NCBI RefSeq assembly: GCF_000317085.1
Contig: NC_019702.1
Coordinates: 2,696,394 to 2,760,393 of the forward strand
Source: Synechococcus sp. PCC 7502
GTDB lineage: Bacteria > Cyanobacteriota > Cyanobacteriia > Pseudanabaenales > Pseudanabaenaceae
Direction: 5' to 3'
Length of the DNA stretch: 64,000 nt
Shown: positions 43,308 to 49,818 of the stretch, one piece after another
Layout: each line of letters begins with the position of its first letter
Position numbering within the stretch: position 1 is the first letter of the stretch
Position numbers and translations under genes: made by a program
Notes under the pieces: generated by a model
The model's database searches: none
What the model was told of the DNA's origin: nothing
What the model saw: the letters and a program-made list of their open reading frames with translations, nothing else

Positions 43308-44471
43308 TTAATTTGATTTGGCTACTATTTCTCGAACTGTTGTTCTTGCCCAAGTATCGACTTCAATAATATCTTCTAGATTGGGATTAGTGATATGGTC
43401 GTGGCGATCGCAGGTTTGTTCGATTAATTGTGGAATCTGTAAAAATGTAATTTTCTCATTTAAAAATAAATCCACTGCCTGTTCATTGGCGGCGTTGAGT
43501 ACTGCTGGCATCGACCCACCTGCCCGTCCTGCTGAATATGCAAGTTGCATACAAGGATATTTGAAATGATCGGGCGATCTAAATGTTAAGTCTCCTGATT
43601 TGACTAAATCCAATCTTGTCCAGTCTGTGGAAATGCGATCGGGGTAAGACAAGGCATAGAGTAAAGGCAATCGCATATCTGGGAGTCCTAATTGCGCTAA
43701 AACCGAGGTGTCTTCCAGTTCAATTAAAGAATGGATGATGCTTTGGGGATGAATCACGATTTCGATATGGTCATAATCTACACCAAATAGATAATGTGCC
43801 TCGATTACTTCTAAGCCTTTATTCATTAGCGTGGCAGAATCAATCGTAATTTTTTTACCCATTGACCAATTAGGGTGTTTGAGGGCATCAGCGATCGTGA
43901 CTGCAGCTAGTTTTTCCGTTGGCAGATCACGAAAGGCACCGCCAGAAGCGGTTAAGATAATGCGCCGTAATCCCCCCTCAGGAACCCCTTGTAAACATTG
44001 AAAAATGGCTGAATGTTCAGAATCGGCAGGTAAAATTTTAATACCATACTCCTGCACTAGGGGCATGACTACCGATCCTGCAGCAATGAGTGTTTCTTTA
44101 TTGGCAAGGGCAATGTCTTTTTTGGCTTTAATGGCGGCGATCGTGGGTAATAAACCAGCACAACCAACAATACCTGTAACTACGGTTTGAGTATCACCAT
44201 AGGCAGCAACGGTTTCCACCCCTTCAGTACCTGCAAGGATAATCGGTTGGGACTTAAGGCTACTAATTGCCTCTTTAAGAGCTAAGTATTTATCAGGATT
44301 AGCGATCGCTATAATTTCGGGCTTAAACTGTAAAACCTGCTGGGCAAAAAGCTCAATATTTCCACCTGCGGTCATCCCCACAACTCGAAACTGATCTGGA
44401 TACTGGCTGACAATATCAAGGGTTTGTGTACCAATTGATCCAGTAGAACCAAGGAGGGTGATTGGTTTCAT
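43308..44471 (-). CDS. dxr: 1-deoxy-D-xylulose-5-phosphate reductoisomerase
   Basis: The second enzyme of the MEP isoprenoid pathway makes MEP from DXP with NADPH. The 387-residue protein has the NADPH site [18 protein letters not shown] at the N-terminus, [15 protein letters not shown], the metal and substrate block [56 protein letters not shown] and [11 protein letters not shown]. It is intact, and the start at 44471 directly precedes the conserved GSTGSIG. It supplies precursors for the phytyl chain used by hpt, although the genes are far apart. Confidence 0.97.
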
Positions 44472-44600
44472 AGAATGTACTGTGCTTTTATTTTTAGACT
44501 ATTATGAACTGCTATTTTATAAACAAGATATAGACAAGTTGCATAATAACCTACCCCAGTGGCATTTTAGCGATGTCTTTAAGTAGTCGTTATATTGGTT

Positions 44601-45350
44601 CTAGTGAGAGCTAGTATTAACTGTCTTGAGATAATAATCAACTGCTTCGGTTGTAGTGCCAGTAAACTTAATTTGTCCTTTGTCTATCCAGATTGCCCGA
44701 TCGCAAGCTTGTTTCATAAATTCCAAGTCATGGGACACGACTAAAACTGTGGCTTGATCATCCCAAAGACTATCCATACGGCGTTTACACTTTTGCCTAA
44801 AGCTTTCATCTCCTACGGATAAGACTTCATCAAGGATTAAAATTTCTGGCTGGACATCGGTGGCGATCGCAAAGCCCAATCGAGCAACCATCCCTGAAGA
44901 TAAAGCCTTTACAGGGACTAGGGCATAGTCATAGAGTTCAGCAAAATCCAAGATTGAAGCTATTTTTTCCTTCATCTGCTCCCGCGTAAAGCCCAACATA
45001 ATCCCGTAGAGAATAATATTATCTGTGACGGATATCTCTGGATCAAAACCTGCCCCCAGTTCAATTAATGGGGCTATTTGTCCTCGCACCCGCACAGTAC
45101 CAGTCGTCGGCTCCAATATGCCAGAGATCAATTTCAGAAGAGTTGATTTTCCTGAACCATTGGCACCAATAATGCCTAGTTTTTCTCCAACTTTGACATC
45201 TAAATTAATATTGTCAAGTACGAGTTTCTTGGCGGGTTGGCGATACTTGCCTTCAAGGAGGGATAGAATTGTTTTTTTGAGATCATAGGAAAATTCTTCC
45301 TGAGTGCGCCGCCAGAGGGATACCCCATCCAATCGAATCAATTCCGTCAT
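44601..45350 (-). CDS. O-antigen/teichoic-acid-type ABC transporter ATPase (Wzt/TagH-like)
   Basis: A 249-residue ABC ATPase of the polysaccharide-export class. Walker A LGIIGANGSGKSTLLKLISG, the class-specific IAPLIELGAGFDPEISVTDNI, signature LSSGMVARLGFAIA, Walker B ILILDEVLSVGDESF and switch VVSHDLEFM are all present. The insertion before the Walker A (TQEEFSYDLKKTILSLLEG) is typical of the Wzt/TagH group. No permease (Wzm/TagG) gene lies next to it, so its partner must be elsewhere. No C-terminal carbohydrate-binding domain is present. Confidence 0.92.
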   Translation of the reverse strand: MTELIRLDGVSLWRRTQEEFSYDLKKTILSLLEGKYRQPAKKLVLDNINLDVKVGEKLGIIGANGSGKSTLLKLISGILEPTTGTVRVRGQIAPLIELGAGFDPEISVTDNIILYGIMLGFTREQMKEKIASILDFAELYDYALVPVKALSSGMVARLGFAIATDVQPEILILDEVLSVGDESFRQKCKRRMDSLWDDQATVLVVSHDLEFMKQACDRAIWIDKGQIKFTGTTTEAVDYYLKTVNTSSH

Positions 45351-45710
45351 TTACTACTGATCTCAATCATTTTTGTATGTATGTAGCCTCAGTCCCAACA
45401 GAAATTCTAGAAAAAGTAAAGTTGAGGAACTTTGTTGGCAATTTTAAGATTTTAGGGGATTTTAGGATTGCATTATATTCAATCCATAGTATAAGTCAAC
45501 GGCAGGAGTTCTATGCAAATTTATCCATTAACTTACTCCTATTCAAAGCATAGGTAATTGGTAAAACTCTATCAAATTAAAGGTTTGTGTTTTTAAATAC
45601 ATAGAGTGAGTCAGTTATTTTGATCACTTATTTAGTGATAATTAAAATCTTGAGGTTTTAAATTCTAAAGGCTATATTGAGTTTAAAATTTTCTTGGAGG
45701 AAGCATTACT
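45351..45710. other. 360-bp intergenic region with a short inverted repeat and strong ribosome site
   Basis: The region is AT-rich and has no supported gene longer than a few codons. An inverted pair ATCACT (45623-45628) and AGTGAT (45634-45639) could form a six-base stem or an operator upstream of the next gene. TTGGAGGAA at 45695-45703 is a strong ribosome site for the gene starting at 45711. Confidence 0.45.
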
Positions 45711-46364: not shown

Positions 46365-46376
46365 AAAGAGTAATTA

Positions 46377-47243
46377 ATGACGATTAAAATTGCCTTTCTG
46401 GGTCTAGGCGTAATGGGTAGTGCCATGGCTGCAAATCTTGCCCGTTTCGGCTGTGCGGTGGTGGGTTGGAATCGGACGAGCGATCGCTCAAGTATTAAAG
46501 TTGCCAGTGATGCGGGAGTAACAATTGCCGCTAATTTGCAGGATGCCGTTAAAGATGCGGATGTCATTTTTTCCTGTTTAGGCGATATTCCTGATGTGAC
46601 CGAAATTTTAGTAAATCAGGTGGCAAACCTTGAACATAAATCGGCATTAGTGATAGACACCAGCACCATTGGTAGTGATGCCGCCCAAAATATTAGCAAG
46701 CTTTTAGAAGCAAGGGGACTCAGGTTTTTAGATGCCCCTGTGTCTGGTGGTGATATTGGTGCCAGAAATGGTACCTTAACGATCATGGTGGGAGGCGATC
46801 GCTTAGATTTTGATCAAGCAAAACCCTACCTAGATATGATCGGCAAAAATATTTATTACTGTGGGAGTTTAGGCAGTGGTCAAGCGGTTAAGCTCTGTAA
46901 TCAGGTATTAGTATCAACCTATATGATGGGCATTTGTGAGGCAGTTTTATTAGCGCAAAAAACAGGCATCGATCCAAATTTAATGATTGAAGTTTGTGGC
47001 AGTGGAGCCGCAGGTTCTTGGGCATTATCAAATCTAGGGATAAAAGTAGCCAATCAAGATTTTGCCCCCGGATTTATGGTTAAGCATATTCTGAAGGATT
47101 TACGCATTGTCAAAGCTGTAGGTGATTCTGAAAATTTATTAGGGGTAGATTTAAGCGATCGCCTATTTCAGATCGTGAATGAACTAGAAGGCGGCAGTGA
47201 GCAAGGAACCCAGGCAATGATTAGGGCATATTTAGGAAGTTAG
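46377..47243 (+). CDS. NAD(P)-dependent 3-hydroxyisobutyrate dehydrogenase-family oxidoreductase
   Basis: A 288-residue beta-hydroxyacid dehydrogenase. The cofactor site IKIAFLGLGVMGSAMAANLA opens the protein, followed by VVGWNRTSDR (Arg after the second strand suggests NADPH), IDTSTIGSDAA, FLDAPVSGGDIGARNGTLTI with the substrate-binding SGG and GSLGSGQAVKLCNQVLV with the catalytic Lys. Glyoxylate/succinic semialdehyde reductases and similar enzymes share this layout, so the substrate is open. Its last 91 bp are duplicated 1.3 kb downstream at 48490-48580. Confidence 0.9.
   Translation: MTIKIAFLGLGVMGSAMAANLARFGCAVVGWNRTSDRSSIKVASDAGVTIAANLQDAVKDADVIFSCLGDIPDVTEILVNQVANLEHKSALVIDTSTIGSDAAQNISKLLEARGLRFLDAPVSGGDIGARNGTLTIMVGGDRLDFDQAKPYLDMIGKNIYYCGSLGSGQAVKLCNQVLVSTYMMGICEAVLLAQKTGIDPNLMIEVCGSGAAGSWALSNLGIKVANQDFAPGFMVKHILKDLRIVKAVGDSENLLGVDLSDRLFQIVNELEGGSEQGTQAMIRAYLGS
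47153..47243 (+). repeat. 91-bp direct repeat, left copy (3' end of the dehydrogenase gene)
   Basis: The sequence from AAGCGATCGCC to GAAGTTAG matches 48490-48580 with about seven mismatches in 91. It is the natural end of the dehydrogenase reading frame, including its stop codon. The similarity begins and ends sharply at these points. Confidence 0.88.
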
Positions 47244-47294
47244 TCAAGTTTAGATATACCTTGAAAGGCTCAGGAGGGTTTGAGTCGATGATTA

Positions 47295-47382
47295 ATCTAG
47301 ATTAAAGATTTCGGGTGTTCAGTGGAGCCATCATAATGTTCCGCAAGTATTGAAACATCGTTGTGATTATCTCAATGGCTAG
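47295..47382 (+). pseudogene. Possible transposase C-terminal remnant
   Basis: A short frame between stops reads LKISGVQWSHHNVPQVLKH then RCDYLNG before TAG at 47380-47382. The pattern GxQW-(4)-V-QVL-RC-YLNG resembles the C-termini of some cyanobacterial transposases, from memory possibly the ISKra4 type. Nothing of the catalytic domain remains. If right, it is a trace of a mobile element inside the repeat-flanked segment. Confidence 0.35.
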
Positions 47383-47414
47383 TTATATTCTTCTAAATAT
47401 ATTTACTCAGCACC

Positions 47415-48371
47415 TTATTGAGATGCTTTTCTATCATCGGCATTTTCAGATTCGTGCAGTTCTTGTTGAGATGTCAAAATAAAATTTTCTGTAGACAGAG
47501 TTTTACAAAAAAAAGCTTCACATTCATTCAATTTTTGACGAAAGTCTAATAAAATATCTTCTTTATACTTGGTAAACTCTTCGATTGTAGTTTGTCTAAA
47601 ATATGCACAGTTTTTTTGAATAAAATGCTCAATAATGTCTTCTTTTACAGTTGAATTCACTGCCTGTTTAAAATTTTCCAGAAATTCTATGTATTTATTA
47701 TGGATTATGCGCTTACCCATACTTGAATGAGATTTAGCTATTGATATTTGCCTTTTATAAAATGACTCTTCAAGAGCTTTTTTAATAGTCAAAGATAATA
47801 GTTCTTTTTCTTTATTAGAGTAATTTAATTTACCCATCGATTGACCTATTGTATTTCTTGTTAGACTTCCAATTCCCTTATTATCAAAAGATGGTGGCTT
47901 TACAGAACGTGATATTTTTAATTCAGATAATAGTTTTGAAATATAGCCCCTAGTATATTTAGTAGACTTATATTGAGAATTTGGATAGGTACTAGCTAAC
48001 CAAAGACAAACCTCGTAAAGTCTTATGACTATATTTTTTGCCTCCACTGATTCTATTGAATCTAACTCATGTATTGCTCTATTGCCAAATTGTGTAATTA
48101 CTTGACATTTTATCAAGATCATCGGGTCTACAAAAGATTGAAATTTTTCTAGGGTAATTAGTCCATAGAGAGTGCTATCTTTAGAATAATTGCTAGAAGA
48201 TAATTCAGGATCATTTTTATACATCCATTTGACAGCTATTTCTAATGCACGTCTTGCATACATACATGCTACTAAAGGATCACTTTCTGTATAAATAACT
48301 GCTGCCATTGCCGATTCGTAGATATGTATCCATTCTGTCCAACTCTCCTCTAAAAATTCAAAATTTAACAT
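47415..48371 (-). CDS. DUF4145-type (HsdR-accessory-like) protein, unknown function
   Basis: A 318-residue protein. The N-terminal ~110 residues (MLNFEFLEESWTEWIHIYES, YARRALEIAVKWMYK, CQVITQFGNRAIHELDSIE) match the DUF4145 helical domain often attached to type I restriction R subunits and also found alone in defence genes. The rest is Lys/Glu-rich and helical (NKEKELLSLTIKKALEE and later segments), with no nuclease or helicase motif I can see. It is very AT-rich with no HIP1 site, unlike the genes around it. It lies in a segment flanked by 91-bp direct repeats, which suggests acquisition. Its role is unknown. Confidence 0.65.
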   Translation of the reverse strand: MLNFEFLEESWTEWIHIYESAMAAVIYTESDPLVACMYARRALEIAVKWMYKNDPELSSSNYSKDSTLYGLITLEKFQSFVDPMILIKCQVITQFGNRAIHELDSIESVEAKNIVIRLYEVCLWLASTYPNSQYKSTKYTRGYISKLLSELKISRSVKPPSFDNKGIGSLTRNTIGQSMGKLNYSNKEKELLSLTIKKALEESFYKRQISIAKSHSSMGKRIIHNKYIEFLENFKQAVNSTVKEDIIEHFIQKNCAYFRQTTIEEFTKYKEDILLDFRQKLNECEAFFCKTLSTENFILTSQQELHESENADDRKASQ

Positions 48372-48489
48372 TCTCTTATAATTTTGTTATTTATACGGTG
48401 ATCTCATTTTACCCAATCATTGAAGTTAGCAAAGACTTCTGCTTGAGGTTTGATATGTTTTAGCTTGAAATACTCAAGCAACTACCGTC

Positions 48490-48580
48490 AAGCGATCGCC
48501 TATTTCAGATCGTGAATGAATTAGAAGGGGGCAGTGAGCAAGGAACCCAAGCGATGATTAGGGCATATACAGAAAGTTAG
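48490..48580 (+). repeat. 91-bp direct repeat, right copy
   Basis: It repeats the end of the dehydrogenase gene (48490-48580 against 47153-47243, about 84 of 91 identical), with the same frame and stop codon, but no upstream part of that gene precedes it. It abuts the end of the metallophosphoesterase gene. Together with the left copy it brackets about 1.25 kb of foreign-looking DNA. Confidence 0.88.
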
Positions 48581-49744
48581 CTAAAGATTAAGCAGCGATC
48601 GCTCTTCAGAGGTCAAATCCTCAGCTTTAAGATCACGGCGCAGCACAGTTCCAGCCACACTAGTAATCATCCGAGGCAAAGTTTGGTGATCGACAACCTC
48701 TAGGGTTTGCATATTGTAGGTAGTGTAGTCTGTGGTTTGGGAGTTTAAATTAATATCAATAATCGTTAGGGGATTAATCGGGCGGAGTTTGCTATTTAAC
48801 CAAGGTCGAGGTCCACTTCCCAAAGCACCAGCATGAAGAAGCTCCAGTTTACCTTTGCGGGCGGGATAATAGGCGTGATCATGACCACTGATATAGGTAT
48901 GGACTTTATATTTTTCCAGTAGCGATCGCAATTTTTCATTATCAGCCAGAATCTCCCCAGCTTCATTCCGACCTACTGCCACGGCATAGAGGGGTAAATG
49001 TCCGATCGCTATCCGCATTTTAGCGGTTTGGGCGGCTGTACTAGCTAAGGCTTTCTCTACCCATACCAACTGGGTTTTAGGAATTTGCCCTGTGGAAGCA
49101 TCCCATACTAGGTAAAAAATATTATTCTGCTCAAAGGTGTAATAAAAAGGGAAACCTGCCCGATCCACAAATTTTAACCCAGGATCATTTTGGGGATTAT
49201 TCCAATAGGCGGATGCTAGGTCTCGTTCGTTACCAAATAAAAACTTGCCAGTAACGGATAATGCCCCTGAAGCATCATGGTTACCAATGGTAAATCCGTA
49301 GGGAATTTTAGTCTGGCGAATGGGTTTGGCAATATATCGATCAAATCCTGCCCACATCGCCTCAATTTCAGCTTTAGTTAGGGAAGGATACTGTCCCGCC
49401 ACCATATCCCCGCCACAAAGAATTAAATCTGGCTGCCAATCAGGAATCATTTGGATGGATTGAGTAACTTGGGGTTCGTAATCGGTAGAACCATAGGCAC
49501 TATTTAGATCGCTAATTACTAAAATTCGCACATCTCCACGCACAGGCGCAAACAAACCCTTGGGCGCAATCGGAACTTTAGCGATCGCATTAGATGATGG
49601 GATAGATTCAGATTTTACCTGCGGAACATTGGAAATACTAGATACATTACTAGAGCTAGATAAAACTCTCTGGGCAGCACCAGTGATAATTCCTCCACCA
49701 ACTACACCGCCCAAAAATAACAACTGACGACGACTAATTTTCAT
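48581..49744 (-). CDS. Exported metallophosphoesterase
   Basis: A 387-residue calcineurin-like phosphoesterase. The N-terminus KISRRQLLFLGGVVGGGIIT is a twin-arginine-type signal, so the folded enzyme is probably exported. Metal-binding motifs are ILVISDLNSAYGS (in place of the usual D-x-H, reading D-L-N), ILCGGDMVAGQ (GGD), FTIGNHDASG (GNHD), IAIGHLPLYA and YISGHDHAYYP (GHDH). The first-motif His appears replaced by Asn, so metal 1 binding may differ from the norm. The substrate is unknown. Confidence 0.88.
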   Translation of the reverse strand: MKISRRQLLFLGGVVGGGIITGAAQRVLSSSSNVSSISNVPQVKSESIPSSNAIAKVPIAPKGLFAPVRGDVRILVISDLNSAYGSTDYEPQVTQSIQMIPDWQPDLILCGGDMVAGQYPSLTKAEIEAMWAGFDRYIAKPIRQTKIPYGFTIGNHDASGALSVTGKFLFGNERDLASAYWNNPQNDPGLKFVDRAGFPFYYTFEQNNIFYLVWDASTGQIPKTQLVWVEKALASTAAQTAKMRIAIGHLPLYAVAVGRNEAGEILADNEKLRSLLEKYKVHTYISGHDHAYYPARKGKLELLHAGALGSGPRPWLNSKLRPINPLTIIDINLNSQTTDYTTYNMQTLEVVDHQTLPRMITSVAGTVLRRDLKAEDLTSEERSLLNL

Positions 49745-49818
49745 TACTGCGTAAGCTTACAATAGGATGCCAACACAGATTAATATATGCTGAGAGTGAT
49801 CAAATCGGGTAAAAAACC

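Follow-up and report, generated by a model that had tools for sequence, protein, structure and literature searches.

Integrative elements are known that re-create the 3′ end of the gene they enter (e.g., e14 in icd), and in many cyanobacterial genomes no octamer is more frequent than HIP1 (GCGATCGC), an abundance for which we know of no explanation. Foreign DNA can also be placed by homology-facilitated illegitimate recombination (HFIR), in which there is a single homologous arm and closure occurs at a microhomology of 3-10 bp, usually with a deletion; the process has been described in S. pneumoniae, A. baylyi and P. stutzeri, and when it was tested in E. coli most of the unexpected products had 109-950 bp of the lacZ gene end in duplicate, explained by a single crossover of re-circularised plasmids (PMC3240628). 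HFIR has also been put forward to account for gene parts that, in Vibrio, lie displaced behind newly gained cargo (PMC5361080), and in cyanobacteria HIP1 has been tied to both site-specific and illegitimate recombination (PMC4390886).

The segment described here appears to be a variant of these HFIR-type or single-crossover insertions, with a duplicated gene end and a joint that recurs at HIP1. As in HFIR, homology would have placed one side and an illegitimate join the other, with about 1 kb of foreign DNA added in the absence of an integrase; unlike in HFIR, where a deletion is usual, a gene end has been duplicated and the joint, as read from sequence alone, recurs at one octamer. The re-circularised single crossover (PMC3240628) likewise leaves foreign DNA with the complete gene end on one side and a truncated copy on the other, but it involved a laboratory plasmid in E. 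coli, whereas the present cases are natural, have homologies of 49-156 bp and are bounded by HIP1. At T6SS/Rhs loci, where 3′ ends are left stranded and immunity genes orphaned, HFIR has been proposed at a conserved gene whose old downstream part is similarly displaced behind cargo (PMC5361080); there, whole immunity genes have moved within toxin loci, whereas here short fragments of housekeeping gene ends are concerned. Elements of the e14 type and CIMEs also duplicate the end of the target gene and restore its reading frame, but here there is no recombinase, the cases share no common site, and the breaks fall at HIP1. Breaks at GCGATCGC are shared with HIP1-associated recombination, but the reports cited in PMC4390886 concern plasmid recombination and cloned sequences, and not the boundary of genes inserted at gene ends.

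The locus lies within the window, i.e., the whole 64-kb stretch that was analysed, positions 2696394-2760393 of a HIP1-rich cyanobacterial chromosome. The window contains no tRNA genes. The end of a dehydrogenase gene recurs downstream as a direct repeat of 91 nt (Table 1), identical at 84 of 91 positions (92%), with 1,337 bp from start to start and 1,246 bp between the copies; since its BLAST E-value is about 1.6e-29, the match is not due to chance. A HIP1 octamer stands at the putative joint. The left copy, which is continuous with the dehydrogenase gene, would be the donor's gene end, and the right, truncated copy the native one. The first 31 bp of the two copies are identical and they diverge thereafter; in an alignment with a genome of the same genus, the sites that agree with that genome divide 4 vs 2 between the copies, so that the native copy is not told by conservation. 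Neither the segment nor the 91-bp repeat has a second copy elsewhere in the genome. An apparent similarity of residues 217-260 upstream of the right copy was judged to be a spurious extension.

Table 1. Features of the locus (numbered within the window) and gene-end repeats at other sites (chromosome numbering); the names lipoate ligase, methyltransferase, pirin, accC, cobQ and DUF29 were read from translations and not from family searches.
Feature	Position	Strand	Basis or remark
Dehydrogenase gene, 288 aa, 3-hydroxyisobutyrate/6-phosphogluconate dehydrogenase family	46377..47243	+	ORF; Pfam NAD_binding_2 (5.4e-45), NAD_binding_11 (4.7e-26)
Left repeat copy, last 91 bp of dehydrogenase gene, in frame, stop included	47153..47243	+	Repeat alignment
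HIP1 octamer GCGATCGC, gene-body end of left copy	47155..47162		Also in same-genus genome with empty site
Inserted segment, AT-rich, 1,246 bp, without HIP1	47244..48489		Composition; absent from same-genus genome
ISKra4-family transposase, decayed C-terminal remnant	47302..47420	+	DNA identity; in-frame similarity of translations
Cargo gene, 318 aa, N-terminal DUF4145 (HEPN clan)	47415..48371	-	ORF; Pfam; homologue searches
Rest of insert, between cargo gene and right repeat	48372..48489		Sequence
Right repeat copy, truncated, directly adjoining phosphoesterase gene	48490..48580	+	Repeat alignment; empty-site alignment
HIP1 octamer, start of right copy	48492..48499		Putative illegitimate junction
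Calcineurin-like phosphoesterase gene, 387 aa, native downstream neighbour	48581..49744	-	ORF; Pfam; same-genus comparison
accC-like gene, 5′ end, 68-bp repeat	chromosome 733978/734598		DUF29-like cargo; relaxed HIP1 case
Lipoate-ligase-like gene, 3′ end, 156-bp repeat at HIP1	chromosome 143389/147756 (143389-147911)		4.2-kb insert with N6 methylase, specificity subunit and PIN genes
Methyltransferase-like gene, 3′ end, 57-bp repeat at HIP1	chromosome 2774250/2774636
Orn/Lys/Arg decarboxylase gene, 5′ end, 49-bp repeat at HIP1	chromosome 2872226/2873865 (2872226-2873913)		1.6-kb AT-rich insert
Pirin-like gene, 5′ end, 58-bp repeat at HIP1	chromosome 3124262/3126342
cobQ-like gene, 5′ end, 103-bp repeat, no HIP1 at break	chromosome 3244568/3246848 (3244568-3246950)		TPR and AAA ATPase genes in insert

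The inserted segment has a G+C content of 31.1%, compared with a window mean of 39.9%, and only 1.9% of stretches of the same length are equally low. It contains the remnant of a transposase: positions 47305-47402 have 76% DNA identity to another, degraded copy in this genome, the frame of which matches NF033572 transpos_ISKra4 (E 1.3e-18), and the remnant lies on the strand opposite to the cargo gene. No listed inverted repeat pairs the two ends of the segment, as an insertion sequence or transposon would show; where a transposon has inverted termini and a short target duplication of fixed length, this locus has a duplication of 91 bp and a transposase fragment that lies only inside the insert. 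A 25-aa minus-strand frame beside the right repeat looked transposase-like at first, and its only convincing match was to itself. A sequence-only reading of this DNA had described the repeated gene end, stop included, at about 84/91, the AT-rich DUF4145 gene between the copies and a possible transposase tail, and each of these descriptions is borne out by the present analysis.

The N-terminus of the cargo protein scores 25.3 bits against the DUF4145 model of Pfam, above the gathering threshold of 23.1 bits, and its residues 1-130 are about 30-42% identical to the N-termini of DEAD-helicase or restriction-type proteins (mostly 0.9-1.5 kaa) and of some shorter DUF4145 proteins. Among the genomes, plasmids, phages and viral contigs searched, only this DUF4145 part found matches: there were no near relatives of the full 318-aa protein and no relatives of its C-terminal portion of about 185 aa. 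The GNxAxH that is conserved in its subfamily is intact, the histidine being H101. The motif Rx4-6H has been put forward for the RNase activity proposed for HEPN domains (PMC3710099); because no arginine lies 4-6 residues ahead of H101, such an activity is uncertain for the cargo protein. PADLOC returned no match to the protein up to an E of 1, and a defence role would be no more than a plausible analogy; the DUF4145 domain alone resembles the N-termini of restriction and helicase proteins. An AlphaFold run without an alignment gave a mean pLDDT of 41, which is unusable.

In the same-genus genome, the dehydrogenase and phosphoesterase genes stand tail to tail, with 23 bp between their stop codons and a single copy of the gene end, and the HIP1 site of the dehydrogenase gene is also present. 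Window positions 43339-45376, 46365-47233 and 48491-49745 match one contig of that genome in order, such that synteny extends to both sides of the segment. Because the same-genus genome has this empty site, the comparison of the two sequences indicates that a foreign piece is inserted here and that the dehydrogenase gene end is re-created. Within the loci examined, more distant members of the family do not have a phosphoesterase gene next to the dehydrogenase gene, and the polarity of the change is therefore based on the one same-genus genome that was compared; precise loss of the segment in that genome would be a possible, though less simple, account. We found no donor genome in which the cargo lies beside a single, intact copy of the gene end.

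These features make it rather likely that the segment arose by a one-sided, homology-anchored insertion of foreign DNA that was closed at HIP1 microhomology. The incoming DNA, presumably acquired by natural uptake, would have carried a related allele of the dehydrogenase gene followed by the DUF4145 gene. Homologous pairing within the dehydrogenase gene would have positioned one side, and the other would have been closed illegitimately at GCGATCGC (HIP1), an octamer that both molecules would have possessed, either directly by HFIR or by re-circularisation of the fragment and a single crossover. As a result, the gene would now terminate in donor sequence, and its own former end, which runs from HIP1 as far as the stop codon, would have been stranded beyond the cargo. 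Since the homology between donor and recipient would end at the gene terminus, the second joint would form at a word that both possess, and selection would retain only those events that leave the gene whole.

We surveyed about 1.9 Mb (about half) of the genome by self-comparison, first 1.1 Mb and then a further 0.8 Mb, for local direct repeats present in two copies, 25-500 bp long and at least 80% identical. At least five further genes have an end duplicated, over 49-156 bp, on either side of an insert whose cargo is unrelated; the insert at the decarboxylase gene, for example, carries a 500-aa gene with a weak match to PADLOC PDC-M44A. In the first 1.1 Mb, five of the 11 local repeats have HIP1 0-4 bp from one end in both copies; in the later 0.8 Mb there are 10 local repeats, none of them a strict HIP1 case and one a relaxed case, that of the accC-like gene, in which the break falls inside HIP1 and the common part is only GCGATC. 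That the footprint occurs at other genes, and is often broken at HIP1, suggests an integrase-free uptake of single genes.

Under the strict rule, by which both copies must have HIP1 no more than 4 bp from an end of the repeat, HIP1 ends occur in 5 of 21 local repeats. The expectation is 0.30 when repeats are relocated at random or sampled from the ends of coding genes (binomial, 1e-5; with the index case, i.e., the dehydrogenase locus, left out, 1.6e-4). The HIP1 boundary had been spotted before the survey and the 4-bp rule was fixed after the first matches; all five strict cases lie within the first 1.1 Mb, where the pattern was noticed, and the strict rule was not replicated in the next 0.8 Mb. 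In a 400-kb piece of a related genome, one of 18 local repeats has a HIP1 end. HIP1 is the most abundant 8-mer, and when the 400 commonest octamers were put to the same test, only GCGATCGC and its one-base shift CGATCGCC gave more than two cases. The geometry is uniform: in all six HIP1 cases (index included), the octamer is on the gene-body side of the repeat, with the break at or inside it, and the other end of the repeat is at, or within about 18 bp of, a start or stop codon, an arrangement that one-sided recombination with a related allele predicts.

If the two copies had diverged before they were joined, their differences would have accumulated in coding sequence. With the same-genus genome as the reference, 8 of 13 codon changes on the truncated branch are synonymous, whereas about 30% would be expected for a dead copy (p 0.016); three cases were informative for this polarised test, and for want of a usable ortholog in that genome, the cases at the lipoate-ligase-like and pirin-like genes were not polarised. 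In the unpolarised set of gene ends, 27 of 49 changes are synonymous, a significant excess if the null is fully neutral and not a significant one if it is half-constrained (p 0.06), the half-constrained rate of 0.43 being our own rough estimate. The synonymous excess is modest; a divergence of the alleles as coding sequence before they were joined is weakly favoured.

The sequence-only reading had seen in the locus the footprint expected of an element that enters the 3′ end of a gene and re-creates it, and suggested that it may be a decayed or parasitic island. The foreign insertion stands, with an empty site (a relative with a single copy of the 91 bp, for which that reading had called) in the same-genus genome between the same flanking genes; the integrative element fares less well, there being, as that reading also noted, no integrase in or next to the segment, and breaks at HIP1 elsewhere. 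Such an element would have to be decayed or trans-mobilised (CIME-like), its attP bearing a dehydrogenase 3′ end that recombined with the chromosomal gene, and its integrase lost or never within the segment. This would account for the duplicated 3′ end and the re-created reading frame, the 31 identical bp followed by divergence resemble the product of a crossover in a short core, and the genome does have tyrosine recombinases (12 matches); yet no integrase, excisionase or relaxase lies in a segment of only 1.2 kb, those recombinases are all far away, and no integrase is seen at the sites of relatives within about 1.5 kb of the gene. Nor is the 26-bp core matched in viral contigs or the repeat in phages, and further copies of the repeat with cargo, for which the earlier reading had proposed to look, are absent from the genome, where similar footprints use other gene ends. 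An att site of a single integrase would not account for a footprint that recurs at unrelated genes, usually at HIP1, with unrelated repeats and cargo and no att-like site in common; the HIP1 breaks themselves would be left unexplained, and we regard an integrative element as improbable.

A local origin of the duplication we hold to be equally improbable. Slippage during replication, a template switch or repair could have duplicated the gene end and trapped foreign filler between copies that drifted apart later; repeat lengths that vary from 49 to 156 bp are expected if there is no fixed site, HIP1 might be a palindrome prone to breakage or slippage, and an IS-like insert flanked by a 122-bp duplication inside an SOS-associated-peptidase-like gene is similar. 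Drift of this kind sits poorly with a synonymous excess on the truncated branch that is, in a small test, too high for a dead copy, and simple copying with an insert that is foreign in composition and carries its own gene; the repeats, moreover, stop at gene termini, the points at which strains would cease to be homologous. The HIP1 breaks, of which there are five to six, might instead reflect site-specific recombination, i.e., a cellular activity that acts on GCGATCGC by cutting or recombination and inserts circles bounded on either side by HIP1. Microhomology is enough for the commonest octamer, other local repeats (the cobQ-like case included) have no HIP1, and one break falls inside the octamer and not at a fixed point, such that we consider this explanation very unlikely.

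If the one-sided insertion closed at HIP1 is confirmed, cyanobacteria would have an integrase-free route by which single accessory genes are added beside conserved genes that are kept intact, with a recognisable scar in the form of a truncated gene end that starts at HIP1, and the commonest octamer of many of their genomes would acquire a role open to testing, or failing that a consequence. A broader notion, which we advance tentatively and hold to be rather doubtful, is that HIP1 might serve throughout the genome as a landing word, with DNA fragments of related strains pairing by one conserved gene end and closing at HIP1, thereby adding single, often defence-like genes with neither an integrase nor the loss of a gene.

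Several other repeats were encountered in the course of this work. At chromosome positions 3085154-3089293, the SOS-associated-peptidase-like gene appears to be split by a 3.9-kb IS-like insert, the duplicated stretch belonging to the interior of the gene. A 68-bp local repeat at 655000-655801 encloses two small genes, with antitoxin- and PIN-like genes nearby; one of its copies starts at HIP1 and the other at a variant that differs by one base. On contig 1 of a related genome (1042905-1043492), two small genes lie between the copies of a 59-bp local repeat, an end of which is 1 bp away from HIP1. At chromosome positions 2786500-2791000, about 60 repeats spaced at a period of about 73 bp look by eye like a CRISPR array. 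Within the window, the long, near-identical direct repeats at 1110-1409/13794-14093 and 1910-2040/20008-20138 are probably insertion sequences.
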